Below, piece by piece: positions 1-24,561 of a stretch of DNA of 24,561 bases. The stretch's first letter is position 1. Every line of letters starts with the position of its first letter. Both the position numbers and the translations under genes were made by a program. The stretch is from a virus: positions 7,177 to 31,737 of IMG/VR virus record IMGVR_UViG_3300037847_007825; one strand, written 5' to 3'. The notes under the pieces were generated by a model. The model worked only from the letters and a program-made list of their open reading frames with translations, was not told the origin of the DNA and did not search any database.

Positions 1-423
1 CATATTTGGAATTAATCCAAGTGGTGAAACCAAAATAAAAATAGAAGGATCATGTTTTTTAAATAATTTTTCTAAATGATCTAAATCACAAGATAAATCT
101 TCTAAATTACAATCACACATAAAAGTATTATAACCTAAAAGCATAGGTGAACTTACATCTGTAGCCCAACTAAGAGATGGAACTATAATATTTAAATTTC
201 TTATTTTATTACTATATTTTAAAGCAGCTAAAGTAAGTAATATAGCTGATGAGCCCGAGTTAACAAAAACAGAATATTTAGTACCTATTTTTTTAGCCCA
301 CTTTTTTTCTAGTTCCCAAGTTAATTCACCCTTAGTTAGTCTTGGTATCTCGTCTTGAGATAACCAGTTAACTAAAGAATTTATATCTTTTTTATCTATT
401 GTGTCACTAACTAATTTTATCAT
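1..423 (-). CDS. DegT/DnrJ/EryC1/StrS-family aminotransferase, N-terminal part (runs off left edge)
   Basis: The first 141 codons of an open frame starting at ATG 423 stay open to base 1. The translation contains VFVNSGSSAILLTLAAL (about residues 52-68), the PLP-phosphate-binding region of DegT-type sugar aminotransferases, then a VPSLSWATD stretch (81-89) where the family has its 'P.(T/S)(F/W)xAT' segment. The catalytic lysine lies beyond the window. Enzymes of this family transfer an amino group to a 4-keto or 3-keto nucleotide sugar, or are dehydratase relatives. The start overlaps the end of the GDP-fucose synthase gene by 17 nt, so it is the next gene of the same operon. It differs in sequence from the other DegT homologue at 21254-22453, so the phage has two. 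The substrate cannot be assigned. Family call fairly sure; role inferred from context. Confidence 0.8.
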   Translation of the reverse strand, partial: MIKLVSDTIDKKDINSLVNWLSQDEIPRLTKGELTWELEKKWAKKIGTKYSVFVNSGSSAILLTLAALKYSNKIRNLNIIVPSLSWATDVSSPMLLGYNTFMCDCNLEDLSCDLDHLEKLFKKHDPSIFILVSPLGLIPNM

Positions 424-5233: not shown

Positions 5234-6183
5234 ACTTTTATATCATAGTGTTCTCTATATAGTTTTTTAGATTGATTACTACATTTATTATAAAAATCTT
5301 TGTCGCTTTTAAGTCTATAAGCTAATTGTCTAGCCTTTTCTACATCATCCACTGCTACTGATAATTCAGGGTGACAATACCTTTGAGTGTCTACTTTTAT
5401 ATTACCAATACAAGGAATGCCAAAATAAGCACAATTCAAACTAAAAGTACCAGCAGCAACAGTAGGCATTAAATGTACAGCGTATTTGAACGTAGATAAC
5501 ACACTCATCCAACCCGCCCATGGTAGTCGTTGAAGATGATTTAAATCAGGGATTTTAGATTCATTAGGTCTTTTAGCATGAGAATCCTGAGTCCACTTTG
5601 CAACTCCAAAAACATCTGCAACAACATAACTTTGAAAACCACCATACCATCTTGCAAAATTACCTCCTATAATTACTTTTTCTTCTACTACAGGGGTAAT
5701 ATGTTTAATTAATTCTTCTATAAGTAAGGTACTAATAACATTTACTTTTTTTTCGGGAAATAAACCTTTATAAAATCTAGTATCTATTTCATTATGCGCA
5801 AATATACTATCACATTTAGATAAAAAATTATAAAAATTGAACTGATCAAATATTTCATAATCATTAAAAAACCATGAAGGACCCTCTTGAATATAGTGAA
5901 TTTTTTTATTATTATTTTTAAGGGTATCAATAAAATTAGACTGTAATAAATTAGAGGCCGGGTTAGGTTTTTCAGATAATTTTACACCTACTGCATTTAA
6001 AAATGTTTCACCTTTTGGGAATATAATAAATACATGGTCTTGATTTTTAACATTTTGATAATCAAAAAGAGTATGATGATTTGCCTCTAAGGCATACATC
6101 CAAGCAAACTCCGTTCTCATATTAGGATGATTTAAAGGTACTTTACCTTCAAACCCCATTTCAGTTAAAAATGTTATATTCAT
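5206..6183 (-). CDS. Putative GT-B-fold glycosyltransferase
   Basis: A 325-aa protein without a clean diagnostic motif. The C-terminal half looks like the donor-binding lobe of a GT-B enzyme: a VIIGGNFARWYGG strand-loop (about 171-183), a segment LMPTVAAGTF followed by NCAYFGIPCIGN, which resembles the 'A.E.G.P.I.' part of GT4-type enzymes without the usual EX7E pair, and an ending QLAYRLKSDKDFYNKCSNQSKKLYREHYD typical of the closing helices of such proteins. There are no membrane segments or signal peptide. It starts at ATG 6183, just after the stop of a 46-aa ORF, and its stop (TAG followed directly by TAA) overlaps the triple glycosyltransferase. Its position among sugar genes supports a glycan role. 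It could be a degenerate, non-catalytic partner. Family uncertain. Confidence 0.55.
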   Translation of the reverse strand: MNITFLTEMGFEGKVPLNHPNMRTEFAWMYALEANHHTLFDYQNVKNQDHVFIIFPKGETFLNAVGVKLSEKPNPASNLLQSNFIDTLKNNNKKIHYIQEGPSWFFNDYEIFDQFNFYNFLSKCDSIFAHNEIDTRFYKGLFPEKKVNVISTLLIEELIKHITPVVEEKVIIGGNFARWYGGFQSYVVADVFGVAKWTQDSHAKRPNESKIPDLNHLQRLPWAGWMSVLSTFKYAVHLMPTVAAGTFSLNCAYFGIPCIGNIKVDTQRYCHPELSVAVDDVEKARQLAYRLKSDKDFYNKCSNQSKKLYREHYDIKVWKEKINLK

Positions 6184-6324
6184 TTATATGTTTCTAAAAC
6201 GTCTTTTATCAGACCATTGTACTTTACTACTCTTACCTAAATAAGCTAATTTACTAACTCTTTGATTTAGATTATTTCTATCAGTATTAAGTTGGGTATT
6301 ACCATTATTTTGATTATCCGCCAT
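6184..6324 (-). CDS. Small hypothetical protein, 46 aa, Asn/Gln-rich N-terminus and basic C-terminus
   Basis: ATG at 6324 opens a 46-codon frame ending in TAA at 6184-6186, directly before the ATG of the next gene at 6183. The ATG follows the GT2 stop with one base between, so it fits exactly into what would otherwise be a 142-bp hole in an operon that otherwise has almost no gaps. The first half is rich in Asn, Gln and Thr. The second half holds KLAYLGK and ends in a basic stretch, SDKRRFRN. I do not recognise a family. The exact head-to-tail fit is the main argument that it is translated; the alternative is a remnant of a longer gene. No Shine-Dalgarno sequence is visible, as for most genes here. 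Confidence 0.5.
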   Translation of the reverse strand: MADNQNNGNTQLNTDRNNLNQRVSKLAYLGKSSKVQWSDKRRFRNI

Positions 6325-6325
6325 T

Positions 6326-6949
6326 TTAAAGTGTATTATAATAATTATTTTGTTTTTCTTGTTTATCTATAGTTTTATGATGATATAAAGCTAAATCCTC
6401 CATAGGAGGTAGGGCTGTAAATATTTTATGTCCCTCTAATTTTTCATGAACTTTATTTTTCCATTTAATTTCTGGTTTGTTTTTCCAAATACGCCATTGA
6501 TAATCAGGCCAATTAACCCAACTTCTTTCATTTAACTTCCAACCCCATTTTTGAACATGATCTTCAGTTAACCCTTCTACTGTGTTTACTCTTGGAACTA
6601 GATATACTTCACTAGATGGATTTGATTCTAAAATTTTAGGTAAACTTTTTATTAGTAGTCTATTTGGAACCTCATCTGCATCTATTTGAAATATATAATC
6701 ACCAGAACATAGATCAGTTAGTTTATTTTTCCAATCTGCAAAATGATTATGAAAATCACCTTTATGCCACATAAACTGACCATTAACAGAATGACTTCTT
6801 AAAAACTCCTCAATTCCTTCATCACCATTTTTATGATCATAAAGAATAATAATTTCATCTTCTGTTCTTTTATGATCTAATAAAAATAGAACTAATTTTT
6901 GTATCTCAACAAATTCATTACAAACTGTAATTGCATAACTTATTTTCAT
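6326..6949 (-). CDS. GT2-family glycosyltransferase (GT-A fold)
   Basis: A 207-aa protein that begins with YAITVCNE (residues 5-12), the nucleotide-sugar-binding strand of GT2 enzymes. It has the metal-binding D-A-D within FQIDADEVP at 87-95. A later WKNKVHEKLEG segment and a histidine pair near the C-terminus resemble short GT2 proteins often annotated 'glycosyltransferase family 2' beside polysaccharide genes. It is shorter than typical GT2 enzymes of 250-300 aa and has no membrane segment, so it is probably soluble and cytoplasmic. Its start overlaps the epimerase stop as ATGA. Donor and acceptor unknown. Confidence 0.78.
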   Translation of the reverse strand: MKISYAITVCNEFVEIQKLVLFLLDHKRTEDEIIILYDHKNGDEGIEEFLRSHSVNGQFMWHKGDFHNHFADWKNKLTDLCSGDYIFQIDADEVPNRLLIKSLPKILESNPSSEVYLVPRVNTVEGLTEDHVQKWGWKLNERSWVNWPDYQWRIWKNKPEIKWKNKVHEKLEGHKIFTALPPMEDLALYHHKTIDKQEKQNNYYNTL

Positions 6950-7794
6950 AAACTTTGTATATATTCTTCTAATCTATCTTTTGGTTCCCAATTTAGTAAA
7001 TCTAATGCATCGTCTCTTTCTCTTAAAGTAACTCTATAGTTTCCTTTTTGATCTGGAATGTAAACACAATCAACATTGAATTTATCTTTAAACATCTGGT
7101 AGACTTCATTAATAGAATGGTTATTACCAGTACCTAATTCCCACGCATCATCTTGTTTATGATTAGTATTACTAATTTTAATCAACCCATCTACTATGTC
7201 ATCAACATGAGTAAAATCTCTTCTTTGTTCTCCATCTCCAACAATAGTAATTGGTTGGTTATCTCTAACTTGCTTTCTCCATATACCAATTACAGCAGCC
7301 CAATCACCATCTACAACTTCATAAGGACCATAAACATTATAAAAACGAGCAATTTCAATATCCATATCATAAGTAAGTTTATACATTTTACAAATCTCTT
7401 CACCTAAATACTTACAAGTAGAATATGGTGACTGATACGGATTATGCCATTTAGAAGATGAACCAGCATATACTATTTTTGCTCTAATTGTTCTAGCAAA
7501 TTCACAAACTCTTTGTGTACCAATAGTATTAACGTCAAATGTTCTTGTTGGATTAGTAAATGAAGGTTGAATTCTAGATAATCCTGCTAAGTGATAAATT
7601 AATTCAAATTTTTGATCAGTTAATTCCATCACATCACAAACATCACCTGTCATATACTCACAACCATCAACATGGTTACTACGGGTTCCAACTGAGTAAT
7701 TATCCAAAGAAGAAACCTCATGTCCCTCCTTAATTAATCTTTTAATTAAATTAGTTCCTATAAACCCTGCTCCTCCTGTAACTAGTATTTTCAT
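6946..7794 (-). CDS. NAD(P)-dependent NDP-sugar epimerase/dehydratase (extended SDR)
   Basis: A 282-aa extended short-chain dehydrogenase. Evidence: the GGAGFIG dinucleotide loop at 7-13, YHLAG at 67-71, a Ser-rich YAGSSS strand at 109-114, the catalytic Y-S-T-C-K at 124-128, ARFYNVYGP, and the substrate-binding region VGDGEQRRDFTHVDD. This pattern is that of UDP-glucose 4-epimerases, UDP-glucuronate decarboxylases and NDP-hexose dehydratases. The protein is shorter than GDP-mannose 4,6-dehydratase (about 345-370 aa) and lacks its look, so I would not use it to fill that gap in the fucose route. One base separates it from the zinc-ribbon gene upstream. Substrate unresolved. Confidence 0.82.
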   Translation of the reverse strand: MKILVTGGAGFIGTNLIKRLIKEGHEVSSLDNYSVGTRSNHVDGCEYMTGDVCDVMELTDQKFELIYHLAGLSRIQPSFTNPTRTFDVNTIGTQRVCEFARTIRAKIVYAGSSSKWHNPYQSPYSTCKYLGEEICKMYKLTYDMDIEIARFYNVYGPYEVVDGDWAAVIGIWRKQVRDNQPITIVGDGEQRRDFTHVDDIVDGLIKISNTNHKQDDAWELGTGNNHSINEVYQMFKDKFNVDCVYIPDQKGNYRVTLRERDDALDLLNWEPKDRLEEYIQSL

Positions 7795-7795
7795 A

Positions 7796-8239
7796 TTATT
7801 CTGGTATTACTCCAATATAAGACAATGCTTCCATGAAATCTTTTTCCATAAAATATTTTACTGTACTCATATCAGATTTATATTTTTCTCCTTTATATTT
7901 TTCTTTTTCTTCTTCTGGCACTAAAATTGATTTTACAGCACCCCATCTCCAATTACCTCTTCCATTTCCAGTAGCAAATATCATACCCTTATCTTTAACG
8001 TTAATATGAGATGGCATCCAAATTTTACCATTATCTTCTTCCTCATCCATTAATACTTTATAAAGTTCAGGTAATAATTCCCACTGTTGATTAAAAAATT
8101 CGCTTCCTTTTTTCATTAAAGAATTAGATTGAAAACCACAACCATAACATAATTCTATAGAAATATCTTTACTAATTTCCTGTCTATAACAAGCATCTGA
8201 TCCACATCGGGTACATTCTTTTAATTCATCAAAATTCAT
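7796..8239 (-). CDS. Hypothetical zinc-ribbon protein
   Basis: A 147-aa protein with an N-terminal zinc-ribbon-like cysteine set: C9-x2-C12, C17, then C31-x2-C34. The rest is hydrophilic and acidic or basic with no other motif I recognise; it includes ATGNGRGNWRWGAV and a KEKYKGEKYKSDM stretch. Proteins of this look are common as unnamed genes in marine T4-like phages, to my recollection. It sits between a GT4 gene (1-nt overlap, TAATG) and the epimerase gene, so it is cotranscribed with glycan genes. No function can be assigned. Confidence 0.72.
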   Translation of the reverse strand: MNFDELKECTRCGSDACYRQEISKDISIELCYGCGFQSNSLMKKGSEFFNQQWELLPELYKVLMDEEEDNGKIWMPSHINVKDKGMIFATGNGRGNWRWGAVKSILVPEEEKEKYKGEKYKSDMSTVKYFMEKDFMEALSYIGVIPE

Positions 8240-9534
8240 TATTTAACTTTTTTTAAATTAGGTAAATTTAGTTCAGGTAATTTTATTTCAACTTGTTGTG
8301 CAAATTGTGGAACATTAGTACTAAGTTTAATATTAATAAATTCCTTCATTTTATCCCAACTAAAATTTGTTTTAGCGTAATGTTTTTGTTTTTTACCTTT
8401 AACTACATATTTTTTATAGTTTTTAAACACATCTTTAAAAGTAGATAAAGCATGTTGATAACTTACTTGAAACCATTTAGCTTCTTTAAGTAACCAATCA
8501 TTAGCAGCACTAGGATGAACATTTTCTAAATTACCAGGTAATAAAGTAGTATACTCAGGATTTAAAAAATCAACATGACCAGACCAACCTGATGCTATTA
8601 TAGGTTTACCTGTCATACTAAACTCTAATAATGGTCTTCCAAAACCTTCACCTTTTGTTAGACTAACCATAGCCTTAACTTTAGGATGATTATATAATTC
8701 ATTCATTTCTGAGTCATCAAATTCTCCATTAAGTAAATAAATATTAGGTAAATCTGTAGTTTTAAATGATTCTTTAAGTTGTTTAATTTTATCCAAAATA
8801 GCATCCCTACTTATGTAAGAAGCTACACCAACTGAACATTTTAATATTAAAGCAGGTTTAGATCCCCGTTTATCCTTAAATGCCTCATAGAAATTTTTAA
8901 CTAATGTTCCTACATTTTTTCTATCATGACCAACTTCTCCAGCCATCCAATGTCCAACAAATAGAAAACAAAAGGATTCTTTAATGTCATCTAAATCAAT
9001 AGTTTTAATTTCTGATGGAGATATAGGTTTATATTTAGTTACATCAACACCTTCAAATAAAACTTCTATAGGTTTTTGTATCTTTACTTGTCCAACAGAC
9101 TGTTGTGTTCGTGGATCTTTTTGATCAAATACCATAGATTCAAGAGTTCTTTTTGAAAAATTAGATGACACCCAATTTATATCCATTCTATTTAATCCTT
9201 GAATCCATTCCGCTTTACATGCAGTAGCTTCAATTCCCGCAGTAAGACCTATATTATATTTTCCTACAGGTTGGAACTCATTAGGTATTGTTATTTGCAT
9301 CCAAATATCAGGTTGTTGTTTTTGCCAATCTTGACTAGCTAAATGACTATATAAAAAATTCCACTCAGGATGATCTTTACAGAAATTCCAAGATGTTTCA
9401 CCCCATCTTTGGGATAATAACTCAACTTTATATTTATCTAATTCAATAATAGCCTTAACTACATCTCTTGCTCTAGCCCCATAACCCGAATAAGTGTCAA
9501 AGGGGCATGATATTACAAATCTTGGTTTATTCAT
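8239..9534 (-). CDS. GT4-family (group 1) glycosyltransferase
   Basis: A 431-aa GT-B enzyme. The N-terminal lobe has SGYGARARDV (16-25), the glycine-rich acceptor-side loop of GT4 proteins. The C-terminal lobe begins near residue 188 with CFLFVGHWM and has the EX7E pair E296/E304 within GEGFGRPLLEF, followed by GKPIIASGWSGHVDFL, which binds the nucleotide-sugar donor. Length is normal for the family. The start overlaps the preceding gene by one nucleotide (TAATG). With the next gene upstream it forms a tandem GT4 pair; their sequences differ clearly, so they are not a recent duplication. Donor and acceptor unknown. Confidence 0.87.
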   Translation of the reverse strand: MNKPRFVISCPFDTYSGYGARARDVVKAIIELDKYKVELLSQRWGETSWNFCKDHPEWNFLYSHLASQDWQKQQPDIWMQITIPNEFQPVGKYNIGLTAGIEATACKAEWIQGLNRMDINWVSSNFSKRTLESMVFDQKDPRTQQSVGQVKIQKPIEVLFEGVDVTKYKPISPSEIKTIDLDDIKESFCFLFVGHWMAGEVGHDRKNVGTLVKNFYEAFKDKRGSKPALILKCSVGVASYISRDAILDKIKQLKESFKTTDLPNIYLLNGEFDDSEMNELYNHPKVKAMVSLTKGEGFGRPLLEFSMTGKPIIASGWSGHVDFLNPEYTTLLPGNLENVHPSAANDWLLKEAKWFQVSYQHALSTFKDVFKNYKKYVVKGKKQKHYAKTNFSWDKMKEFINIKLSTNVPQFAQQVEIKLPELNLPNLKKVK

Positions 9535-10976
9535 TAATATAATATTTTATGATTTAAAAATTTACCTTTATAATTATTTGCATTAACTAATTCATATTTT
9601 TCTCTTGGTTTCCAAGTATCAAATAATTCCTTAAATGCCTCTATTACTCTATTACCTTGATGTTCAGAAGTAAATCCGGCTTCATCACTAATAGCCCATT
9701 CTCTACCTTTTAATCCTCTTCTTTTTAATTCTTTCCTTCCTAATTTATAACATTCCTTTATTCTATCAGCTGCATCTTCCCATCTACATCTATCATCAAA
9801 AATATAAGGTGTAGGAGGGGATCCCTGAATAGATCTAGAAGTAGGATAAACTGGAAAAGCCCACTCTCCATGCTTTTTAAAAGTTCCTCTATGATTAGAA
9901 GGTATATTAGCATCTGGAGTAAACCAATTACCATCACCATCTACAAATCTCATTTGATCCTGCATTCCACCTGTAACATTAGCAATAATTGGAGTACCTG
10001 CTAAAATAGCTTCAGTATTTGCTAATCCCCAACCTTCATTTGATGTTAGTAATATTTGTACATCTGCTATGTTATATAAATGATTCAAATATTTTTCCTC
10101 TATTTTACCAAAAATAAACTTAACATTATTTTTATATTTCTCATCAAACAAATATTCTTTTACTTTAGGTAAATCAGTACCTGGGTCTGTAACAGGTTCC
10201 GTTTTCATTACTAGGAAACAATCTTTAGCTTCATCTTCAGGTAAAGAATCTAGAAATGCTCTAAAGGCTAACATTGTATCTGGTACTTGTTTCCTTCTTA
10301 TATTTCTAGAATTATAAAATACAACAAATTTAGGTTTTTGTCCTTTAAATAAATTTTGAATAGATAATTGATAATCTTTATCATTTTCATCTAATGGGAA
10401 ATAAATATTTTCATCTTTTCCATGTGGAATATACTTAAATAATCTATTACCCTCATGACCCTTAAGTACTAGTTTATTAATATTAACAGTTTGTTTAGAT
10501 ATTCCCATTAATAAATCACAAGATTCATAATAAGGTCTATTATACATTGGTGCTGGGTAGTCATCCCATATATTTAAGTATGTAATAGGAATATTTTTAC
10601 GTATTTCTTGTTCCAGATTAAACACATGAATGAAATATCTAGGATCAGTAAATAAAAATATGGCATCAGGTTTCTCAATATTAATTATTTGCCTAATAAA
10701 TTGAGGATGCCCATACCCATCTACTGGGTATACAATTACGGATGAATCATTAATACCTGCTAAATTATTAGTATCTGGAGATAAATCCAATTTTTTACCC
10801 TTTTCAGGATGTTTTATTGCCCCACCTAATTGTACCCAATTAAAATGGTGAGCTGTATGGACTACTATTTCTTTTGCTACAGTTGCAACACCAGAATGTA
10901 CTCTAATATCATCACAAATTAATAGTATTTTTTTCCTTTTCTCTTTTGGTATGTAAGGGAACTTCTTATTCTTCAT
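9534..10976 (-). CDS. GT4-family (group 1) glycosyltransferase
   Basis: A 480-aa GT-B enzyme. An N-terminal KILLICDD strand and HSGVATVAKE loop (27-36) precede a GT4 donor lobe: FVVFYNSRNIRRKQ (217-230), EKYLNHLYNIADVQILLTS, and the EX7E pair E314/E322 in NEGWGLANTE, then ILAGTPIIANVTGGMQD. These are the usual GT4 landmarks in order. It starts at ATG 10976, overlapping the end of the ribbon-helix-helix-like gene by 11 nt, which makes it the second gene of the glycan operon. No membrane segment is seen. Substrate unknown. Confidence 0.87.
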   Translation of the reverse strand: MKNKKFPYIPKEKRKKILLICDDIRVHSGVATVAKEIVVHTAHHFNWVQLGGAIKHPEKGKKLDLSPDTNNLAGINDSSVIVYPVDGYGHPQFIRQIINIEKPDAIFLFTDPRYFIHVFNLEQEIRKNIPITYLNIWDDYPAPMYNRPYYESCDLLMGISKQTVNINKLVLKGHEGNRLFKYIPHGKDENIYFPLDENDKDYQLSIQNLFKGQKPKFVVFYNSRNIRRKQVPDTMLAFRAFLDSLPEDEAKDCFLVMKTEPVTDPGTDLPKVKEYLFDEKYKNNVKFIFGKIEEKYLNHLYNIADVQILLTSNEGWGLANTEAILAGTPIIANVTGGMQDQMRFVDGDGNWFTPDANIPSNHRGTFKKHGEWAFPVYPTSRSIQGSPPTPYIFDDRCRWEDAADRIKECYKLGRKELKRRGLKGREWAISDEAGFTSEHQGNRVIEAFKELFDTWKPREKYELVNANNYKGKFLNHKILY

Positions 10977-14654: not shown

Positions 14655-16274
14655 TTACATCATCCCCATCATTGATGGATCTATTTGGGGTTGTTTTTCT
14701 TCCTCTAACTCATTAACTACTGTACATTCTGTAAGTAAAACTGTACCAGCTACTGAAGCAGCATTTTCTAATGCTAATCTAGCTACTTTTGTTGGATCTA
14801 TAATACCTGCTTCTTTCATATCAACTGTATTATCGGTTTTTATATCAAATCCTAACCAACCATCATTACCAGAATTAATCATTCCATCAGCAATAATTTG
14901 TCCCTGAACTGCATCATAACCAGCATTAACTAAAATTTGATTAAATGGTTTAGCACAAGCTCTTTTTACTATTTGAGCACCCGTAGTTTTAGTCTCTAAA
15001 CCTGAAGATGCATATAGTAGTGCAGTTCCACCTCCTGGAATTATCCCTTCTTCAATAGCAGCTTTTGTAGCATGTAGTGCATCATCAACTCTATCTTTCT
15101 TTTCCTTCATTTCAGTTTCTGTGTTTCCACCAACATGAATAATAGCAACACCACCTACAAACTTAGCTAATCTTTCTTGTAGTTTTTCTATTTCAAATGG
15201 TGTAGTAGCCTTATCAATTTGTTTTTGAAGTTCTTCAATACGTGCTTCAATTCTATCAATATCTCCTTTACCATCAACAATAGTGGTTTGTTCTTTTTCT
15301 ACTGTAACAGTTCTAGCTTCACCAAACCATTCCCAACTAAACTTATCTAACTTCATTCCCTTTTGTTTATCAAAAACAACACCACCAGTAGTAATAGCAA
15401 TATCTTCCAAAGCTAATTTTCTTCTATCTCCAAAATCTGGGGCTTTAACTGCTACTACTTTCATAGTTCCTCTCATTTTATTTACAATAAGAGTTGCTAA
15501 TGCTTCATTATCTATATCTTCAGCTACAATAACAAGAGATTTAGCTTGTGCAGATACAGCTTCTAGAATAGGTAATAATTCTTTTACTTGTGTAATTTTT
15601 TGGTCTGCAAGAAGAATGAGGGGGTTTTCTAATGTGGCAGTCATTGTATTATTGTCTGTAACAAAATAAGGTGATTTATAACCTCTTCCAAACTGTAACC
15701 CTTCAACAGTTTCAAGATAGGTTTCACCTGTACGAGATTCTTCTATATGAACAACCCCCTCCATTCCTACTTTATCTATTGCAGTGGCAATTAATTTGCC
15801 AACTTCTTTATCATTATTAGCAGATATAGTTGCAATTTGTTCTAATTGCTCTTCACCTGTAATTTCCTCTGATATATTATTTCTTAAATTATCTACTACT
15901 TTATTTACTGTAGTATCAATATCTCTTTTTATTTGAACTGCATTTTCATTATTATTTAAAGCACTTAAACCTGCTTTAATCATCTCTCTAGCTAATAAAG
16001 TAGATGTTGTTGTACCATCACCTGCTTTTTCAGCTGTTTTAATTGCAGCTTGTTTTACTAGTTGTATTCCTAATTCTTGCTCGGGATCCTTTAAATTTAT
16101 AGATTTAGCTACTGTTACCCCATCTTTTGTAGATTGAGGTACTCCCTGATTATTAGCTATAACTACATTTCTTCCATTAGGACCTAAAGTTGAAACTACA
16201 GCATCAGCTAATGTATCAATACCTTTAACTAAATTAGTTCTGGCATCTGTTCCAAATTGTACTTGTTTATTCAT
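14655..16274 (-). CDS. groEL: Phage-encoded GroEL chaperonin (Hsp60)
   Basis: A full-length 539-aa group I chaperonin; E. coli GroEL is 548 aa. ATP-site residues are intact: TLGPNGRNV near 29-37, D51 (counterpart of D52), DGTTT at 86-90, D398 in RVDDALHATK and GGG at 414-416. The apical substrate-binding positions Y199, Y203, F204, L234, L237, L259, I263 and V264 are hydrophobic as in E. coli. It lacks the classical GGM-repeat tail and ends in DPSMMGMM. It should form a folding chamber with the GroES encoded immediately upstream (8-nt overlap). Full domain structure and conserved sites argue for a working chaperonin. Phage-encoded GroEL is known from a minority of phages. Confidence 0.96.
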   Translation of the reverse strand: MNKQVQFGTDARTNLVKGIDTLADAVVSTLGPNGRNVVIANNQGVPQSTKDGVTVAKSINLKDPEQELGIQLVKQAAIKTAEKAGDGTTTSTLLAREMIKAGLSALNNNENAVQIKRDIDTTVNKVVDNLRNNISEEITGEEQLEQIATISANNDKEVGKLIATAIDKVGMEGVVHIEESRTGETYLETVEGLQFGRGYKSPYFVTDNNTMTATLENPLILLADQKITQVKELLPILEAVSAQAKSLVIVAEDIDNEALATLIVNKMRGTMKVVAVKAPDFGDRRKLALEDIAITTGGVVFDKQKGMKLDKFSWEWFGEARTVTVEKEQTTIVDGKGDIDRIEARIEELQKQIDKATTPFEIEKLQERLAKFVGGVAIIHVGGNTETEMKEKKDRVDDALHATKAAIEEGIIPGGGTALLYASSGLETKTTGAQIVKRACAKPFNQILVNAGYDAVQGQIIADGMINSGNDGWLGFDIKTDNTVDMKEAGIIDPTKVARLALENAASVAGTVLLTECTVVNELEEEKQPQIDPSMMGMM

Positions 16275-16644
16275 TAGATATGTCTTTTAAATTTTCAATT
16301 TCTTCTTCACTTATATTCTGTAAAGTATCACTTAATGCATCATTAAATGACTCTTTTTTACTTATTTTTGCTAAAACCTGATTTTCAGGGCCTACATAAT
16401 ATTCTTCCCCATCATAAGGAAGTTTTGTAAATCCCATAGTGGGTAAAACAACTTTATCTCCTACTTTTAGTTTAGTAGGAATAAAATCTCCTGTAATAGT
16501 TGGTTTTCCAGGACCTACAGCCATAACTGTACCCATTTCATTTTTTTCTTTTCCTAAATCAGGTACGATTATATTACCATAAGTAGTTTCTTCCGCCTCA
16601 AAGGGCTTAACTATAACAGCGTCAAACAGTGCTTCTAATTCCAT
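16267..16644 (-). CDS. groES: Phage-encoded GroES co-chaperonin with C-terminal extension
   Basis: A 125-aa protein; typical GroES is about 95-100 aa. The beta-barrel core starts ALFDAVIVKP (5-14), the mobile loop covers about 16-34 with the GroEL-binding hydrophobic triplet I25-I26-V27, and the roof and core continue through MGTVMAVGPGK and VGDKVVLPTMG to VLAKI (90-94). About 30 residues after this are an acidic, Ser/Glu-rich extension absent from host GroES. It caps GroEL. Order groES-groEL is as in bacteria. Its start overlaps the preceding small gene by 23 nt. T4 gp31 is a functional analogue but much more diverged; this one is a recognisable GroES. Confidence 0.93.
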   Translation of the reverse strand: MELEALFDAVIVKPFEAEETTYGNIIVPDLGKEKNEMGTVMAVGPGKPTITGDFIPTKLKVGDKVVLPTMGFTKLPYDGEEYYVGPENQVLAKISKKESFNDALSDTLQNISEEEIENLKDISNE

Positions 16645-16942
16645 CTGTATATTCTTTTATTTGGTTACTAATTATTCTATATTCTTCTATATATTCACTA
16701 AGTGAATCATAATTTCTTTTTGTATGCATAAGTTCCTCTGAGATTTTAACTAATGCCAATTCAAAACTTGCATAATAACCCTGAGGTTTAGCATATTCAG
16801 TTCCTACACCTTTGGATCTAAAATGATCTTTATTAGGAGTTATTCTTTCATTTACTGTATAACATAAATCATCTTTTGTTATATAGTAAGGTTCCATTAA
16901 AGGATCTGAAATTACTGTGATTGATTTTGCTTTTTTAGCCAT
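16622..16942 (-). CDS. Hypothetical protein, 106 aa, upstream of groES
   Basis: I choose ATG 16942 (MAKKAKS) over an upstream TTG at 16975, because the upstream 11 codons overlap a promoter-like motif and look unlike coding sequence. The protein has SITVISDPLMEPYYITKDD (7-25), a YYASFELALVKI segment and a C-terminal helical part rich in Tyr/Glu. Small single-domain proteins with a 'PYYI..D...Y.V' start and a '.Y..s...Al..I' middle are common in phages, but I do not name a family. Its end overlaps groES by 23 nt, so it belongs to the chaperonin operon. A GGAG lies about 20 nt before the ATG, too far for an ordinary ribosome binding site. Confidence 0.68.
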   Translation of the reverse strand: MAKKAKSITVISDPLMEPYYITKDDLCYTVNERITPNKDHFRSKGVGTEYAKPQGYYASFELALVKISEELMHTKRNYDSLSEYIEEYRIISNQIKEYTDGIRSTV

Positions 16943-16966
16943 TTGTAATTTTTTTATTAATACTCC

Positions 16967-16977
16967 AATATACAAAA
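16967..16977 (-). promoter_or_regulatory. Shared TTTYGTATATT motif before the chaperonin operon
   Basis: The minus strand reads TTTTGTATATT, followed by GGAG and then about 20 nt of A/T-rich leader to the ATG at 16942. It differs at one position from the copies before gene 45 and the 90-aa gene. Here the spacing suits a promoter -10 element with transcription starting just before the chaperonin operon. Tentative. Confidence 0.38.
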
Positions 16978-16980
16978 AAT

Positions 16981-17508
16981 ATTGAGCTAGGACACGCTTT
17001 TTTAATAAAAAATACTACTTAATTTTAATGGACTTTGGTTTTGCTTCATCAGCCAAAGGTATAAAAATATCTAATAATCCATTTGCTAAAGATGCATCAG
17101 TTTTTGATAAATCAAATTTAGGTGCAATTTTATATCTTAAGTCAAAAGATTTTTTAGATAAACCACTATGGATAGTTCCTTCATGGAATTTTTCATCCTT
17201 TGGTTTTTTATAACTTATTTTTAAAATATCCCCTTCAATATCAAGAATAACGTCTTTTTTAGTTAACCCAGTACAGGCAACTTCAAAATAAAGACCTTTA
17301 TCATCATAGTAAATATTAAGTGGATGTGGTTGTTTTGAATTTAAAGCTGGTGCGAATTGCGATTCAGCGTTGAAGTGATTCCTAAATAGGATGTCGAAAG
17401 GACTTATATGCCTTTCCAAAATTTCTAATGTACTCATATCATTTTTATTTGTGAGCGCCTAAGCTAACTCGATTAAACATAAAACATAACTTGTGCCCTA
17501 GCTACAAT
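16981..17508. repeat. Inverted repeat pair flanking the hsp20 gene
   Basis: The left arm ATTGAGCTAGGACAC (16981-16995) and the right arm GTGCCCTAGCTACAAT (17493-17508) are reverse complements over about 15 bp, with one mismatch (a G-U pair in RNA) and one bulged base. They bracket hsp20 and lie outside the coding region. A weaker, direct-repeat relative of the right arm is at 17449-17468 (TTGTGAGCGCCTAAGCTAAC). Possible roles: pairing between the 5' and 3' untranslated parts of the hsp20 message, a protein-binding site, or a scar of cassette insertion. Confidence 0.4.
17015..17437 (-). CDS. hsp20: Small heat-shock protein, Hsp20/alpha-crystallin family
   Basis: A 140-aa protein. It has a variable N-terminus (1-35) and an alpha-crystallin domain from about 38 to 130, including YFEVACTGLTKKDV, LKISYKK and the signature ASLANGLLDIFIP (115-127). 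The C-terminal I-x-I motif is at 137-139. It should bind unfolding proteins without ATP as oligomers and pass them to GroEL-type machines. Hsp20 genes are common in T4-like cyanophages. It has its own leader gap of 107 bp with promoter-like sequence and is bracketed by an inverted repeat. The first 30 codons and the leader contain more CG-containing codons than neighbouring genes. No Shine-Dalgarno sequence precedes ATG 17437. Confidence 0.93.
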   Translation of the reverse strand: MSTLEILERHISPFDILFRNHFNAESQFAPALNSKQPHPLNIYYDDKGLYFEVACTGLTKKDVILDIEGDILKISYKKPKDEKFHEGTIHSGLSKKSFDLRYKIAPKFDLSKTDASLANGLLDIFIPLADEAKPKSIKIK

Positions 17509-17862: not shown

Positions 17863-18580
17863 TTCTAGCAATATAATATTCGCTATAAATATTTTCAGAA
17901 GAAAAATTTAATTTTAGTATACCCAGTTTTGATAAGCTTAATACACCGGAAGTTTGATCTTTATTAGAATTTAAAATATCCTTAAATATGTCTGAATCAT
18001 ATGGAATTGAAATTCCAGTTTCTTTAATATCACCATTCATTTGATATGATATTTTATTAGAATAACCTGTACTATCTCCAAAAATAAATTCACATACATT
18101 ATTATTATCAAAATCTTTTGTTGTTGTAATTAACATATTATTAACGTCTGTTAGGGCGTTTTTTGCTTTAATTAAATGGTCTATATCTTCTGGAGATAAA
18201 TTTAAAACTATCTCATATCCCTCTTCCGGATCATCATAATAGGTATTTTTTCCTAGAATTAGAGTATCCGCTAAAGAATAAGTTAAATCAAAATTTGAAT
18301 CCTGAATATGGATTTTAGTATAAATGGCTTTCATTTTTTCTAATGAAATCATTAAATCACCATTTGTAATGGATATCAATTTACTTAATTTATGGGTATC
18401 AAATACTCCTAATTCAGCATCTTCCAATGGAAAATTTTCATGTACTATTTTACATACTCTACCTGCTTCACCAGCATAAATAGTAAGTTGATTATCTTTA
18501 ATTCTCCATTTTACCTGGTTATTTAAACCGTTTAGGTAATATTTGGAAATAATACTTGTTAATTGGTTTTTACTTATCAT
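17855..18580 (-). CDS. 45: Sliding clamp, DNA polymerase processivity factor (T4 gp45-like)
   Basis: A 241-aa protein; T4 gp45 is 228 aa. It follows the C-terminal polymerase gene and shows the clamp pattern: an N-terminal helix (MISKNQLTSIISKYY), FPLEDAELGVFDTHKLSKLISI (50-71, matching the DFDVAIYDLNGFLGILSLV region of gp45), NLSPEDIDHLIKAKNAL at the start of the second repeat, and a C-terminal strand run. It forms a trimeric ring that tethers the polymerase, and in T4 it also activates late transcription. Start ATG 18580 follows a 23-bp gap with the shared TTTYGTATATT motif. Sequence identity to T4 is low; the identification leans on pattern, size and position. Confidence 0.87.
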   Translation of the reverse strand: MISKNQLTSIISKYYLNGLNNQVKWRIKDNQLTIYAGEAGRVCKIVHENFPLEDAELGVFDTHKLSKLISITNGDLMISLEKMKAIYTKIHIQDSNFDLTYSLADTLILGKNTYYDDPEEGYEIVLNLSPEDIDHLIKAKNALTDVNNMLITTTKDFDNNNVCEFIFGDSTGYSNKISYQMNGDIKETGISIPYDSDIFKDILNSNKDQTSGVLSLSKLGILKLNFSSENIYSEYYIARNE

Positions 18581-18586
18581 AACTAT

Positions 18587-18597
18587 AATATACGAAA
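18587..18597 (-). promoter_or_regulatory. Shared TTTYGTATATT motif before gene 45
   Basis: The minus strand reads TTTCGTATATT 6 nt before the ATG of gene 45. The surrounding run TAAAATAATTTTCGTATA (from the upstream stop codon) is nearly identical to the gap between groEL and the 90-aa gene, apart from one extra T. It may be a promoter element or an RNA site near the start codon. Confidence 0.38.
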
Positions 18598-18603
18598 ATT
18601 ATT

Positions 18604-19539
18604 TTATATTTCAAACGATTTTAAAGCGTTTACATAAGGATTTAAATTAAGAGACCAACCTAAATCACTAAAAAATCCCTCTAATTTATTTAATAAAATT
18701 GAGTCAAATACTTTTTGTCTGTCAGCATAAGTATTTAAAAAATCTATTATTTTATCTGGCATTTCATAATCAAAAAATGCTAGTGCCTCTATTTTATATG
18801 GGTTATCCTTTAAATAAATCCATTTTACTTTATCTGCCATTGTAATTAGATTATATTTTCTATCTAATTGCCATAATCTAAGTAAATCATTATAACGAAT
18901 AGCAGCACGAACAGGAGCAGGAGCACCTTTTAATATTTCAGTAAACATTTCACCTGCACGGGCACTTTTACCACTATATTTTTCTAATTTTTTTACAGCA
19001 GTTGGATTACCTAATTTAGCTAAAGGAATAGTACCATCTAGTATTTGTTTTTTAAATACTTTAATTTGAGATATAATACTTTCTTTACCTTCACCTTTTA
19101 ATACTTGTTGTAAAATATCATTAAAGAAATCTCCTAATATAGGAGGAAAATTTGCTTTCATAAACTCTAAACCTTTAATATCTAGAGTTTCCTTAGCAAT
19201 ACCTTCTTGTTTAGTAATCCATTGAGCGTATCTTCTAGTAGCTCTAAAATAAGCAGAACGAATAACACATTCTGTTTTCATTTCAAGTCTATGTTTAGGA
19301 ACATTAAAACATTCCTTAGATAAAACATTATAATGATCAGTAATAATATCCTGATATTCAATGGCAACTTTTTCTAATAATTGATCTTTTTTCTTATCAT
19401 TAAAAGATTCAAAATTAGGATATAAATGAAGAAGTAAAGGTTCGGCATTAAAGTAATTTGAATCTGTGTCTACATAGGCACAAAAATTTGTATCTCCTTC
19501 ATCGCAAATAAACCAAGGTGTATCTTCTAAATGTTTCAT
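18604..19539 (-). CDS. 43: DNA polymerase family B, C-terminal part (motif C and thumb), split gene
   Basis: A 311-aa protein that supplies what the other polymerase gene lacks. Motif C is YVDTDS at residues 22-27 with the catalytic Asp pair D24/D26. A TRRYA segment at 101-105 corresponds to the K-K-R-Y region of T4 gp43, and IKGLEFMKANFPP (121-133) to its MGMETQ..STP region, followed by a helical thumb. Together with the 592-aa N-terminal part it makes 903 aa, close to T4 gp43 (898 aa), so nothing major is missing. No exonuclease or motif A/B is present, so it cannot work alone. ATG 19539 follows the TAG of the 87-aa gene immediately and in the same frame. The two halves must assemble in trans. 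Confidence 0.92.
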   Translation of the reverse strand: MKHLEDTPWFICDEGDTNFCAYVDTDSNYFNAEPLLLHLYPNFESFNDKKKDQLLEKVAIEYQDIITDHYNVLSKECFNVPKHRLEMKTECVIRSAYFRATRRYAQWITKQEGIAKETLDIKGLEFMKANFPPILGDFFNDILQQVLKGEGKESIISQIKVFKKQILDGTIPLAKLGNPTAVKKLEKYSGKSARAGEMFTEILKGAPAPVRAAIRYNDLLRLWQLDRKYNLITMADKVKWIYLKDNPYKIEALAFFDYEMPDKIIDFLNTYADRQKVFDSILLNKLEGFFSDLGWSLNLNPYVNALKSFEI

Positions 19540-19803
19540 CTAAAATTGTGTATCTCCAGGTATTTGAATTACACCAGAATCTTTTGTTCCATCAGATCTG
19601 GTTCTGGAGTCTTTAGTTAATTCAACTTCATATTTTACTCCTTTTAATCGAAAATGACCTCCTTGTTTTAACATTTTTCTAAAGAAATTTTCTTGAGTTT
19701 CATTCCAGTCTTCACTGATTAATATCAATTCATCCTTAGATATTTTATCCCCATTTACTACAATGTTCATATTTTTTCTTATTGACTGTTTCTTTAAAGG
19801 CAT
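19540..19803 (-). CDS. Hypothetical protein, 87 aa, directly upstream of and in frame with the polymerase C-terminal gene
   Basis: I place the start at ATG 19803, 4 nt after the preceding stop, instead of a start at 19911 that would overlap the upstream gene by 104 nt. A GGAG lies 12 nt before this ATG. The protein is basic at the start (MPLKKQSIRKN), has a WNETQENFFRKMLKQGGHF helix-turn (about 44-62), then RLKGVKYEVEL and a Thr/Ser/Asp-rich stretch. No family recognised. The gene ends in TAG, and the next codon in the same frame is the ATG of the polymerase C-terminal part, so readthrough would fuse the two. Probably a separate small protein. Confidence 0.65.
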   Translation of the reverse strand: MPLKKQSIRKNMNIVVNGDKISKDELILISEDWNETQENFFRKMLKQGGHFRLKGVKYEVELTKDSRTRSDGTKDSGVIQIPGDTQF

Positions 19804-19807
19804 AATT

Positions 19808-20680
19808 TTATTTTTCTCCGTAATAAGTTGTTTTTGTTTTATAACATTCCATAGCATCAATATACGATAAAGGTTTATGATTATCAAGAAATTCTCCATC
19901 CCAAGATTCAAACCAATTATAACTTTTATCCGTTTCTGTTAAAAAGGCAGGATAAATTAAATCTTTTTCATTCCACCAAAAGATTCTCCATATGTCATTT
20001 CCATCTTCTTCTGTCCAGGCAAAATTAACTCTATAATCATCTCTAATATCATATATATTTAATCCAATTTCTAGAAAAGCAAAACTAAAACGTATTTGAG
20101 CTTCCTCTCCTGAAACATAGTCAGATTCTTTACTATGTGGTAACATACCAAACTTATCCCAAATCTTTTTTAGATTTTTACTAGATGCAATTCCTGTAGA
20201 TAACCCAGCATATTTTCTAAAACCATTATGTCTATGGGGTTCTCTTAAAAAAGGACATAAATAACCACAATCTGAATAGGAATTATGTTTATTAATTAAA
20301 TATTGATCCCAATTATGTTGAACAAAAAAATAATCATCCTCATTAAAGATATAATAATCATAATTTAATTGATACTTTCCAAATACATCAGACCAAGCGC
20401 CATAACTTATACCCTTATTTTCTCTTATGATTATTTCTACTTCTGTATCTTTTATTTTCTTTGGAGTAATTTTATAAACTTCAGTTAAATAAGAGTAATG
20501 ATCTATATCTATATTAAAATTAAATATAATTTTATCTAAACTATGTTTAACTTCTTCTAAATGTTTTATTTGGGTTTTTAATAAGTAAAATTTATCTTCC
20601 CTACAGGACTCTAACATTTTTCTTCTTTCGCCTAAGTAAAAGTTAACTACATAACAACTAGTTGGAATAAATTTATTCAT
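19808..20680 (-). CDS. Putative GT-A-fold glycosyltransferase
   Basis: A 290-aa protein. RENKGISYGAWSDV (86-99) resembles the GT2 segment before the metal site, and IFNEDDYFF (111-119) with E114-D115-D116 occupies the DXD position. Later, LSTGIASSKNLKKIW and SGEEAQIRF fit the acceptor half of GT-A enzymes. The usual N-terminal nucleotide-binding strand is less clear. No membrane segment. It lies between the formyltransferase (8-nt overlap) and the 87-aa gene, inside the interruption of gene 43. It probably transfers the amino sugar made by the two preceding enzymes, but this is inference from position. Confidence 0.62.
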   Translation of the reverse strand: MNKFIPTSCYVVNFYLGERRKMLESCREDKFYLLKTQIKHLEEVKHSLDKIIFNFNIDIDHYSYLTEVYKITPKKIKDTEVEIIIRENKGISYGAWSDVFGKYQLNYDYYIFNEDDYFFVQHNWDQYLINKHNSYSDCGYLCPFLREPHRHNGFRKYAGLSTGIASSKNLKKIWDKFGMLPHSKESDYVSGEEAQIRFSFAFLEIGLNIYDIRDDYRVNFAWTEEDGNDIWRIFWWNEKDLIYPAFLTETDKSYNWFESWDGEFLDNHKPLSYIDAMECYKTKTTYYGEK

Positions 20681-21263
20681 ATTTGTTTCTTAATTTTGTT
20701 AAAGTTAGTTTATATAAGTCATTATCACTTTCTTTTACTTTACCTCTTTTAAATACTCTAGGAGGTAATTTAGTACAGGAATTAATTTCTTTAACTGTCA
20801 TAGTTTCTAATAATTTTAAGCTATTTAAAACAAATAAAGGAAATATGTTAACCATTTTATCATACAATGTTATCATAGTATCTTCTTTAGTTACTGGATA
20901 AGTTATTTTACTAATAATATTACCATAATCTAATTCTTTACCCATTTTATGAAAAGTTAATCCTTGTTCTACAGATTTTTCTTGTAAAGTGTGATATAAA
21001 ATATCTGTACCGCCCCACATAGGTAACAAACCCGTATGAACATTAAATGCATTTTTTATATTAATTAATTTTTTATCATACTGTAAAGAAAGTTTAATAT
21101 CATGCTCTATATTATCTTTTACTATAGGTAAATTAACTTTACCTTTTATTGTAGGTGATGTTGAAGGAATATGGCCTACTAAATTATAATAATCTTTTAA
21201 TAAATTAACTGTTATAGCAGTTAAATAAGAAGAACCATAAATTAAAATATTTTTTATTTCCAT
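20673..21263 (-). CDS. Formyltransferase-fold protein, probably sugar N-formyltransferase
   Basis: A 196-aa formyltransferase-fold protein. NVHTGLLPMWGG (74-85) gives the catalytic Asn74 and His76, GLTFHKM (101-107) is the second conserved element, and Asp112 in ELDYGNI completes the Asn-His-Asp set. These enzymes use 10-formyl-tetrahydrofolate. It is shorter than methionyl-tRNA formyltransferase and lacks its C-terminal tRNA-binding domain. It overlaps the end of a sugar aminotransferase gene by 10 nt. That pairing is the usual one for N-formylated amino sugars such as Qui4NFo or N-formylperosamine. PurN-like activity is less likely given the context. Confidence 0.85.
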   Translation of the reverse strand: MEIKNILIYGSSYLTAITVNLLKDYYNLVGHIPSTSPTIKGKVNLPIVKDNIEHDIKLSLQYDKKLINIKNAFNVHTGLLPMWGGTDILYHTLQEKSVEQGLTFHKMGKELDYGNIISKITYPVTKEDTMITLYDKMVNIFPLFVLNSLKLLETMTVKEINSCTKLPPRVFKRGKVKESDNDLYKLTLTKLRNKYE

Positions 21264-22453
21264 TTTTTAATACAGTCAACTATATATTTTCTTTCTTTTT
21301 TAGTTACCCACCATCCAACTGGGATATTTACTACTTTTCCTATAGTTTTTTCTAAATTAGGTAGATTAGTTACAAATTCTTTCACACAAGTATGTTTATC
21401 ATTTCTTTCATGAACTTGTGAAACAGCAATATTACATTCATCCATATATTTATAAAAATCTTCTCTATTATCTACTAACATAGAATAAATCCAAAATGCA
21501 GATTCACAGTCCTTATGTCTTTCTAATAAAGTTACTCCAGGAACATTTTTTAAATGTTTATCATAATAATTAGCATTATCTTGATGTTTTGTTATTATTT
21601 TATCTGCATGTTTTAAATTTTCAATACCTACAGTAGCACAAACATCATTCATATGAAATTTAAATCCCCATTCTAAAACATCAGCTTCACATCTAAAATC
21701 TTTCCTATCTCCATCCCTATCAATACCATACCACCTTACTAATTTACCTCTTGTAAATAAATCCTTATAAGGTACTGTTAAAATACCACCATCAACAGAA
21801 GTTACATGCTTAATAGCTTGAAGGGAAAACATAGCAATATTACCATGATTACCAACTTTTGTACCTTTAAATTTAGAACCAAAAGCATGAGCACAATCCT
21901 CAATAACTAAGGGTTTAAATCCATACATAGAATGTGCCTTTTCTTGGATTTCTTTAATTTTGTCTAAATTATTAGGATAACCCCCCCAATGAACTAACAT
22001 AATAACTTTAGTTTTAGGAGTAATTTTTCTAGCTAAATCATCTAAATCCATATTTAAAGTAGAAGGATCTATATCAACCCATTTAATTTTTAAATTATTA
22101 GCTAAAATAGGCCAGTTAGTTGCAGTACAAGTCATAGGTGTAGCTAGTACTTCATCACCGTCTTCAATTCCAGGCCAATTAGGATTGGTAAAAATTAATC
22201 CCTGATACTCATCATCTAAATAATCTTTATTTGGTTTTTTAAGTAAATGTAAAGCTAAATGTAAAGCAGAAGTTCCTGAATTAGTAGTAAATAAATTTTT
22301 ATTCCAAAGATAATCTTTTAATTGATCTTCAAATAATTCTACTTTAGGACCTTGTCCTATATATCCACTATCTAATACTTCTCCCACTCTTTTTTTAGCT
22401 GTAGGGGACATAAAAACTTTAAATAGGGGTATTTTATTTTTTGGTTTATTCAT
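21254..22453 (-). CDS. DegT/DnrJ/EryC1/StrS-family PLP-dependent sugar aminotransferase
   Basis: A 399-aa enzyme of normal family length. SGYIGQGP (29-36) and TNSGTSALHLAL (57-68) form the PLP-phosphate region. E185-D186 in VIEDCAHAFGS binds the pyridine ring, and K215 in FSLQAIKHVTSVDGG is the Schiff-base lysine. A glycine-rich NIPVGWWV near the end is typical. It would aminate a keto-deoxy nucleotide sugar, for example to GDP-perosamine or a dTDP-4-amino sugar. It starts 13 nt after the stop of the N-terminal polymerase gene and is followed directly by the formyltransferase. It is the first gene of the four that separate the polymerase halves. Exact sugar unknown. Confidence 0.9.
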   Translation of the reverse strand: MNKPKNKIPLFKVFMSPTAKKRVGEVLDSGYIGQGPKVELFEDQLKDYLWNKNLFTTNSGTSALHLALHLLKKPNKDYLDDEYQGLIFTNPNWPGIEDGDEVLATPMTCTATNWPILANNLKIKWVDIDPSTLNMDLDDLARKITPKTKVIMLVHWGGYPNNLDKIKEIQEKAHSMYGFKPLVIEDCAHAFGSKFKGTKVGNHGNIAMFSLQAIKHVTSVDGGILTVPYKDLFTRGKLVRWYGIDRDGDRKDFRCEADVLEWGFKFHMNDVCATVGIENLKHADKIITKHQDNANYYDKHLKNVPGVTLLERHKDCESAFWIYSMLVDNREDFYKYMDECNIAVSQVHERNDKHTCVKEFVTNLPNLEKTIGKVVNIPVGWWVTKKERKYIVDCIKKWK

Positions 22454-22466
22454 TTTATTTAATTAA

Positions 22467-24245
22467 TTACCACATAGGTCTTGGTTGTTCCTTAATATCA
22501 GGAGTAAATTCTTCCTCCTTAACTTTAGATTTTTTAGTTAATTTTAATTCTTTTTTACCTCTTATAACATCATTCATATGTCTATTGGCACAAAGAGCTG
22601 ATTCTTGTATAATTCTATGTCCTGTTAAAGTAATAGCTTCACTTAATATTGAATAACTCATTCCATATCTAAAAGAAGGTAATGCTGTTGCTCCGTATAA
22701 ACTATTTAATAAAATTTTCATTGTATATTGCATTAAAAAATAATACTCACCTTTTTCTTTATCATTAGCCTTATATGCTTTTGCCATCTTAGCTTTATAT
22801 ACTTTACGTTCCTCAAACCATTTAGCTAATATTGTAGATAAAGTTGATTGTCTATCAGTAGTAAATAGAGAACCGTTAGCTGAAATAGCTAAATTATTTT
22901 GTTCAATCATAGAAATTAATCTTCCCACATTAACTGTAGTTTGTTGTCCTTTATTATTTTCAACTAATAATTCTTCATAATGAGCAAGTTCTTTTAAATC
23001 ATTAAGACCCAATCTATTATTACGGTCATCAGCATCTATGATACGTCCCTTAAATGTTTCTTTTCCTATGTTTAAAGACATTATTATAGATGGATATAGT
23101 GAAGTTAAATCCTCATCAAACATGTATTTATATAATCCGGCTTTAGGACAAAATAAATAACCACCAGCATACCCTTTTTTACTTTTAGGATTAGGATCCC
23201 TGGGAGGAGGAATAATATTTTGAGATAATAAATAGGCCGAAATTGCTCCATCTTGAGTTATGCTATTAGAATATACTTCACTATAGTTATGATTACCTTT
23301 ATGTGATAAATTTTTAGTTAAAGCTATATATTGTAATTTTTCATCTAGTAGTTTTAATATTTCTACATCACGAAAATTATATTGAATAAATTTATTAATA
23401 TCTGTTTCAAATAATTGATCTAAATTTCCATCATAATCTATTTTTTTTACTTTAGCATACTTTTCTCCAATAGCATCTAATTTCCAACTTGGTTCATCTT
23501 TCCAACTATATTTTTTATGTAATCTCATATAGTCTAAAGATTCAACCCCTATAATATCTACAAATTGATTACGTTTAAAGAAATATTGATTATTTTTCTT
23601 TGCATTAACATCCCCTAAAGGTGATAATTGATCAGCCCATTCTTGACCTAAAACACTACACATTCTATAATACAAATAAGGAATATCAAAGAAATCACTA
23701 TTGTAACCTATTAAAATATCTGGGTCTATTTCTCTAAAGTGTTCTAAAAATTTAGCTAATAATTCTTGTTCTGTAGAACAAGGGATGATTTCCTTAGATT
23801 TAGCTTTAGTATGTTTAAGTTGGTTTTTTTTATCTAAAATTAAAATATGCCAAGTATCAGGAGTTTTATCCCACCAAGCAATAGAAGTAATAGGCATAGG
23901 AGCTCTTTCTATATATTCTTCCGTTAAGGCTCCTCCTATTTCACACTCAATATCAAAAAATAATTCTCTATGTCCTGTGGAGGGTGTATCGTCAGTACCA
24001 TATTTTTCCACTAAATATTTTTGGTGGGGTTTCATATCATGGAAATGAAGATTATTGTAATTTTTATTCCATTTATATATTTTTTTTAAGGATTCACCAC
24101 CTAAACCTTTATACTCTTCTTCATCTTCAGAACATTCTTGGTAAGCATAATTATACCATTCGATTTCATCATAACCTCCTTCGTCCCAAAGATGAATCTT
24201 ATATTTATTTTCTCCTAATCTTGTTGCATAACATTTTTTATACAT
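22467..24245 (-). CDS. 43: DNA polymerase family B, N-terminal part (exonuclease, motifs A and B), split gene
   Basis: A 592-aa protein with the N-terminal and 3'-5' exonuclease domains and most of the palm and fingers. Exo I is FFDIE with D98/E100, Exo II YNSDFFD (181-187), Exo III YNFRD (289-293). Motif A is DLTSLYPSII (379-388, catalytic D379) and motif B KILLNSLYGA (510-519). After the helix following motif B the protein ends in a charged, Lys/Glu-rich tail closing with PRPMW, before motif C. Motif C and the thumb are in the gene at 18604-19539. The ATG overlaps the upstream stop by one nucleotide. The clean motif set and the complementary second gene argue for a functional two-subunit polymerase instead of a broken gene. 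Confidence 0.94.
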   Translation of the reverse strand: MYKKCYATRLGENKYKIHLWDEGGYDEIEWYNYAYQECSEDEEEYKGLGGESLKKIYKWNKNYNNLHFHDMKPHQKYLVEKYGTDDTPSTGHRELFFDIECEIGGALTEEYIERAPMPITSIAWWDKTPDTWHILILDKKNQLKHTKAKSKEIIPCSTEQELLAKFLEHFREIDPDILIGYNSDFFDIPYLYYRMCSVLGQEWADQLSPLGDVNAKKNNQYFFKRNQFVDIIGVESLDYMRLHKKYSWKDEPSWKLDAIGEKYAKVKKIDYDGNLDQLFETDINKFIQYNFRDVEILKLLDEKLQYIALTKNLSHKGNHNYSEVYSNSITQDGAISAYLLSQNIIPPPRDPNPKSKKGYAGGYLFCPKAGLYKYMFDEDLTSLYPSIIMSLNIGKETFKGRIIDADDRNNRLGLNDLKELAHYEELLVENNKGQQTTVNVGRLISMIEQNNLAISANGSLFTTDRQSTLSTILAKWFEERKVYKAKMAKAYKANDKEKGEYYFLMQYTMKILLNSLYGATALPSFRYGMSYSILSEAITLTGHRIIQESALCANRHMNDVIRGKKELKLTKKSKVKEEEFTPDIKEQPRPMW

Positions 24246-24561
24246 TAAAAGAACTGTTTTAAATCAGGTTTAAAATAATTTATTGATTTCATTACTTTTC
24301 TATCTCTTGTTCTGTATACTACAAATCTTTCCCCCACCTTCTCGTAGTGACATGGCTCAGCTTGTTCTTTAGAACGGAGGGTGACAGTTTCCATGGCTTC
24401 TTCTTCAGTGCTGCAAGACTTCGACATATTACTTGCTTGTACTTCTTGATATGCTGGCCATATCTTATCCTTAAGGCCGTGTAACATAACACCGTTCCCA
24501 AGGGAAACGTAAGTAATATCACACAAAGCATCCAAAACTTCCACGATGTCTCCGTTTTCGC
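24245..24561 (-). CDS. MazG/PRA-PH-like nucleotide pyrophosphohydrolase, C-terminal part (runs off right edge)
   Basis: The frame is open to the right edge, so the gene begins outside; a Met-like codon near 24544 is an internal GTG. The visible part begins ENGDIVEVLDALCDITYV, matching the 'E..D...D..YV' metal-binding helix of all-alpha NTP pyrophosphohydrolases, followed by NGVMLHGL and YQEVQASNMSK, typical of phage PRA-PH/MazG-like proteins that hydrolyse NTPs or dNTPs. After that come a Cys/Glu-rich stretch and a basic tail. The stop overlaps the polymerase ATG by one nucleotide. Bases 24330-24561 look much richer in G+C than the rest of the window, while the last 80 bases of the gene return to the AT-rich norm. 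Confidence 0.75.
   Translation of the reverse strand, partial: ENGDIVEVLDALCDITYVSLGNGVMLHGLKDKIWPAYQEVQASNMSKSCSTEEEAMETVTLRSKEQAEPCHYEKVGERFVVYRTRDRKVMKSINYFKPDLKQFF

Follow-up and report, generated by a model that had tools for sequence, protein, structure and literature searches.

The stretch of DNA analysed here, referred to as the window (24,561 nt), belongs to an IMG/VR virus record of 31,737 bp. It encodes a gp43-type family-B DNA polymerase in two genes on the minus strand, spaced 2927 nt apart, with four other genes in the gap between them:

22467..24245, minus strand, N half of the gp43-type family-B DNA polymerase, 592 aa
22467..22538, minus strand, N-half tail TKKSKVKEEEFTPDIKEQPRPMW, 23 residues and the stop codon, lying past the usual end of the half
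21254..22453, minus strand, gap gene 1, DegT/DnrJ/EryC1/StrS-type sugar aminotransferase, 399 aa (PF01041, E 1.3e-71)
20673..21263, minus strand, gap gene 2, formyltransferase-domain protein, 196 aa (PF00551, E 1.5e-10)
19808..20680, minus strand, gap gene 3, weakly glycosyltransferase-like, 290 aa (phrog_14945, E 0.0011)
19540..19803, minus strand, gap gene 4 (c87, MPLKKQSIRK...), 87 aa, start codon set by comparison with relatives
18604..19539, minus strand, C half of the polymerase, 311 aa
17855..18580, minus strand, downstream gene in the sliding-clamp position, 241 aa, named from its position and its similarity to the relatives' neighbours

The coordinates, strand and lengths of the two halves are as given in a preliminary description of the locus. 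The N half comprises the N-terminal domain, the 3′-5′ exonuclease, palm motif A, the fingers and motif B, and matches DNA_pol_B_exo1 and DNA_pol_B (profile 23-208 of 453). The C half, in which 23 residues precede the DTDS of motif C, carries the motif-C hairpin (YVDTDS), the remaining palm, the thumb and the C-terminal end. The matches to PHROG 262 adjoin, at positions 14-568 of 856 for the N half (E 1e-109) and 565-842 for the C half (E 2e-41), so that between them the two halves span nearly the whole family, with no loss. Exo I-III and motifs A, B and C are all present with their catalytic residues: the exonuclease residues D98, E100, D187 and D293, motif A D379 and motif B K510 of the N half, as well as motif C D24 and D26 of the C half, are invariant among 68-71 aligned relatives. 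The cut falls in the linker between the helix that follows motif B and the motif-C hairpin, and consequently the catalytic aspartates sit on two polypeptides. A single polypeptide is usual for gp43 but not required, and Aeromonas 43A/43B is accepted as gp43; here the enzyme is encoded in two open frames, as in all 165 contigs of the survey given below. The two lengths do sum to 903 aa, as first pointed out, but the match to a whole gp43 is a coincidence, given the 23-residue tail, which is common only to the window and L022/L023, and an intact sister of 888 aa; typical relatives have about 556-569 + 310 aa. In L420 and L432, the usual end of the N half is replaced by a long unrelated tail (...GTSFSLGTSESLER).

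When the halves were folded with AlphaFold2, each separately and from alignments in which one row from a phage database record was left out, the models had mean pLDDT values of 86.9 (N half) and 87.5 (C half). Both show the RB69/T4 gp43 fold, with RB69 gp43 as the top PDB match, and the C-half profile matches RB69 residues 602-902. The new termini of both halves fall in disordered or low-confidence stretches: the last ordered helix of the N-half model spans residues 530-561 and is followed by a disordered tail (562-592), and about ten low-confidence residues lie ahead of the motif-C strand in the C-half model. The intact sister, found in L272/L275, is 49-55% identical to the window's halves and has similar surroundings, with the clamp-position gene adjoining and GroES, GroEL and the clamp loader downstream. 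Its gene order is partly that of the split loci, which, together with its 888 aa, shows that nothing was lost in the division. Alignment, profile coverage, the two models and the intact sister agree with the initial proposal of a lossless division between motifs B and C, and indicate, as was also proposed, an active site formed from two polypeptides.

The gap had been described as holding sugar-biosynthesis genes. It contains four genes and not sugar genes alone, namely those for the aminotransferase, the formyltransferase and the weakly glycosyltransferase-like protein and the 87-aa gene, which had been missed. The ends of the formyltransferase gene overlap both neighbouring genes, and the 87-aa gene ends in a stop codon directly next to the C-half start codon. 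Searches of Pfam, PHROGs and the phage collection gave no match for the 87-aa protein. Its gene is present in 94 gaps of split loci, in a single copy per genome where checked, whereas four L270-type relatives carry it 7-9 kb upstream of the polymerase. Clamp-position and clamp-loader genes adjoin the polymerase halves. The 241-aa downstream gene, without a family match of its own, is probably the sliding clamp, judging by its position and its similarity to neighbours in relatives; the clamp-position gene adjoins the polymerase likewise in L272, Microcystis phage Mel-JY01 and the uncultured huge phage LR756508. Elsewhere in the window, GroEL, GroES and Hsp20 genes lie within the replication gene cluster (14655-17437), and a large glycan cluster (407-10976) contains epimerases, a carbamoyltransferase, group-1 glycosyltransferases and a 798-aa protein with GT2, GT11 and GT10 domains.

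Viral-contig scans, with the halves and relatives as queries, and one genome-contig scan yielded 258 distinct loci with motif C, namely 166 split, 82 intact and 10 without an N part. LR756508 was treated as a separate case and removed, leaving 165 split loci on distinct contigs, all cut at the identical point. A search of metagenomic phages for the same split, with other genes or none between the halves, had been suggested, and loci of both kinds were found. An independent contig (L005) has the same 2927-nt gap as the window. A family-B polymerase search found no other PolB gene in the 31.7-kb record, and a PHROG 262 search of 15 related records found no intact polymerase, just the two halves. 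Two of these 15 records, of about 164 kb (G007 and G008), are circular assemblies as judged from their 126-bp matching ends. Both halves are under purifying selection, with dN/dS values of 0.14 (N half) and 0.11 (C half) over 40 pairs; their distances co-vary (r 0.91), although shared ancestry alone yields a high value. Within the annotated phage collection, the intact polymerase of Mel-JY01 matches best, at 34-35% identity, and the clade therefore appears to be uncultured; MAG binning hints weakly at flavobacterial hosts. The contig ends L435/L436, which are the ends of the 164-kb G007, are diverged tandem repeats.

The commonest single state of the junction between the halves is a 4-nt ATGA overlap, which accounts for 48 of the 57 loci with a bare stop-start overlap, the other 9 overlapping by 1 nt. 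The remaining junctions range from 2 to 4214 nt. Inserted genes amounting to 0.2-4.2 kb are present in 103 of the 165 loci and usually abut or overlap the C-half start: the last ORF of the gap ends -4 to +3 nt from this start in 78 of 87 gapped loci, and the N-half stop overlaps a start codon in 66 of the 87. The gap genes of relatives, some of them named by eye, include DUF6165, mannose-6-phosphate-isomerase-type cupin, cytidylyltransferase-like, aminotransferase, methyltransferase-like and Smr genes and one GIY-YIG endonuclease. Genes have thus settled repeatedly between the two polymerase genes, sugar-related ones in the window. The endonuclease, a SegE-type GIY-YIG homing endonuclease, is encoded in the gap after the N half of L424; the earlier statement that the gap holds no homing endonuclease is true of the window but does not extend to this relative. 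Inserts of more than 150 nt occur at 103/165 junctions between the halves, and also at 39/162 junctions between the C half and the clamp-position gene and at 30/131 upstream junctions. These numbers, and the fact that shared inserts reflect ancestry, weaken the idea of a unique insertion hotspot. Since neighbouring junctions carry inserts too, though less often, the cut junction is better likened to a busy intergenic site.

Split polymerases are already known in other phages and archaea, and the present cut site is a variant. In the Aeromonas phages 25 and 44RR, gp43 is likewise encoded by two adjacent genes; according to the account given in PMC2988022, 43A and 43B of phage 25 purify together and polymerise (citing Petrov 2010), and a seg endonuclease is associated with the split. 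However, motif B (KILINSLYG) and motif C of 44RR are both in 43B and its cut consequently lies between motifs A and B, whereas the N half of the window's polymerase includes motif B and the cut follows it. Moreover, the 44RR spacer is only 49 nt, against 2927 nt in the window, and the phage group is a different one. The Aeromonas precedent invoked in the preliminary description is a real split gp43, but cut elsewhere. The huge phage LR756508.1 (L003, 1928-9852) also has a PolB cut in this linker, after motif B and before motif C; its gap contains four larger ORFs, and a clamp-like gene follows downstream. It differs in carrying two inteins (327 and 312 residues), located in motifs B and C. It stands outside the window's clade in the tree, and its division is therefore probably an independent event; a viral-contig scan with its C half as query found no relatives. 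The PolB genes of Pseudomonas phage MIJ3 and of L194 are also interrupted and divided in two. For MIJ3, the proposal is a split intein that includes an HNH endonuclease ORF (PMC6892783), and the L194 gene (6001-10085) is, by eye, broken just after GDTDS, with apparent intein halves and an extra ORF between. These breaks would be of the intein type, and no such element is found at the window's break. The other precedent first named was a split family-B polymerase in Methanothermobacter, supposedly with motif C on the small subunit. The split itself is confirmed in the treatment of Methanobacteriales PolB3 in PMC4104785 (citing Kelman 1999), where the two-chain enzyme is thought to be due to erratic intein excision; it is archaeal, as opposed to the phage polymerase here. 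Finally, a conserved split DNA polymerase has been described in the OM43 phages MEP401 and MEP402 (PMC10580990), which, unlike the window's phage, are related to Zobellviridae.

In combination, these observations make it very probable that the locus encodes the replicative gp43-type polymerase of an uncultured phage lineage, made from two co-directional genes as separately translated halves that assemble non-covalently. The N half (exonuclease, motif A, fingers and motif B) and the C half (motif-C hairpin and thumb) would fold together into one polymerase, as reported for Aeromonas 43A/43B, with the motif A aspartates of one chain meeting the motif C aspartates of the other across the subunit interface. 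A single division is most likely, in the linker between the post-motif-B helix and the motif-C strand, and the simplest route would be a frameshift or point change creating an overlapping stop-start (ATGA). The linker would thereby have turned into an ordinary stop-start junction in which other genes were able to settle, in the window the aminotransferase, formyltransferase, glycosyltransferase-like and 87-aa genes. Translational coupling would be kept, since the last gap gene, the 87-aa one, still abuts the C half.

With regard to the order of events, the trees favour a single origin of the division without proving it: when all split rows were held as one clade, the likelihood was 5.05 above that of the free tree (p-AU 0.595). 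In the free trees, the intact pair L272/L275 is placed beside one split group (SH-aLRT 86-91), and there may therefore have been a re-fusion in this pair, or two divisions. Growth of the linker seems to have preceded or accompanied the cutting, since 45 residues separate the post-motif-B helix from DTDS in L272 and 43-49 in the split polymerases, against about 28 in those of the Mel-JY01 type (counted by eye). Rather than a frameshift, the division could be the remnant of a mobile element, i.e. a homing endonuclease or intein in the linker that was later lost or replaced. This reading bears only on how the split arose and fits the same two-piece enzyme. Polymerase genes are favoured by homing endonucleases (PMC2988022), the gap of L424 contains one of SegE type, the Methanobacteriales split is attributed to intein excision (PMC4104785), and LR756508, with its inteins in motifs B and C, is divided at the same linker. 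Still, 57 loci have no insert, only an exact ATGA or 1-nt overlap, and an endonuclease in the gap was seen in one relative only, so that a mobile origin is possible but rather unlikely.

It is improbable that the split is purposeful, with the ratio of the exonuclease- and thumb-bearing chains set by separate translation or the 87-aa protein serving as a third subunit. Rejoining of the halves into one chain, via an intein, RNA splicing of an intron or frameshifting across the junction, is very unlikely. The split intein proposed for MIJ3 (PMC6892783), the intein-like ends and extra ORF of L194 and the two inteins of LR756508 provide models for it, but neither half of the present polymerase has an intein family match or intein-like ends, and a search of 18000-24561 for self-splicing introns returned one Rfam match, far below the gathering score and to an unrelated family; neither an intein nor an intron was found at the window's break. 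The C-half frame is at offset 2 from the N-half frame in 58/61 overlap loci, where a -1 shift could join them. However, a 4-nt overlap by itself fixes the frame offset. Where gaps hold whole genes, of differing kinds, the offsets are mixed (41/35/29) and frameshift fusion is untenable; the bare overlaps still allow it. Separate roles for the halves, such as that of a stand-alone exonuclease for the N half after loss of polymerisation, are highly implausible: separate genes could differ in expression, but motifs A, B and C are all retained, the constraint on both halves is similar, clamp-position and clamp-loader genes adjoin, and no other PolB gene was found in a search that covered polymerase family B. 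An assembly chimera, or a decayed polymerase with an intact backup elsewhere, the two outcomes first named as fatal to the claim, can practically be dismissed, for although the 31.7-kb record makes for an incomplete virus genome, L005 repeats the gap, 165 contigs share the division point, both halves are under purifying selection, and neither the record nor the circular relatives hold an intact copy.

The two-piece replicative polymerase is thus an essential enzyme cut through its active-site domain and retained in this form across a large phage lineage, and the locus shows gene accumulation inside a formerly single essential gene. Since the split is kept lineage-wide and an intact sister is available for comparison, it becomes directly testable how a two-piece polymerase arises and assembles.
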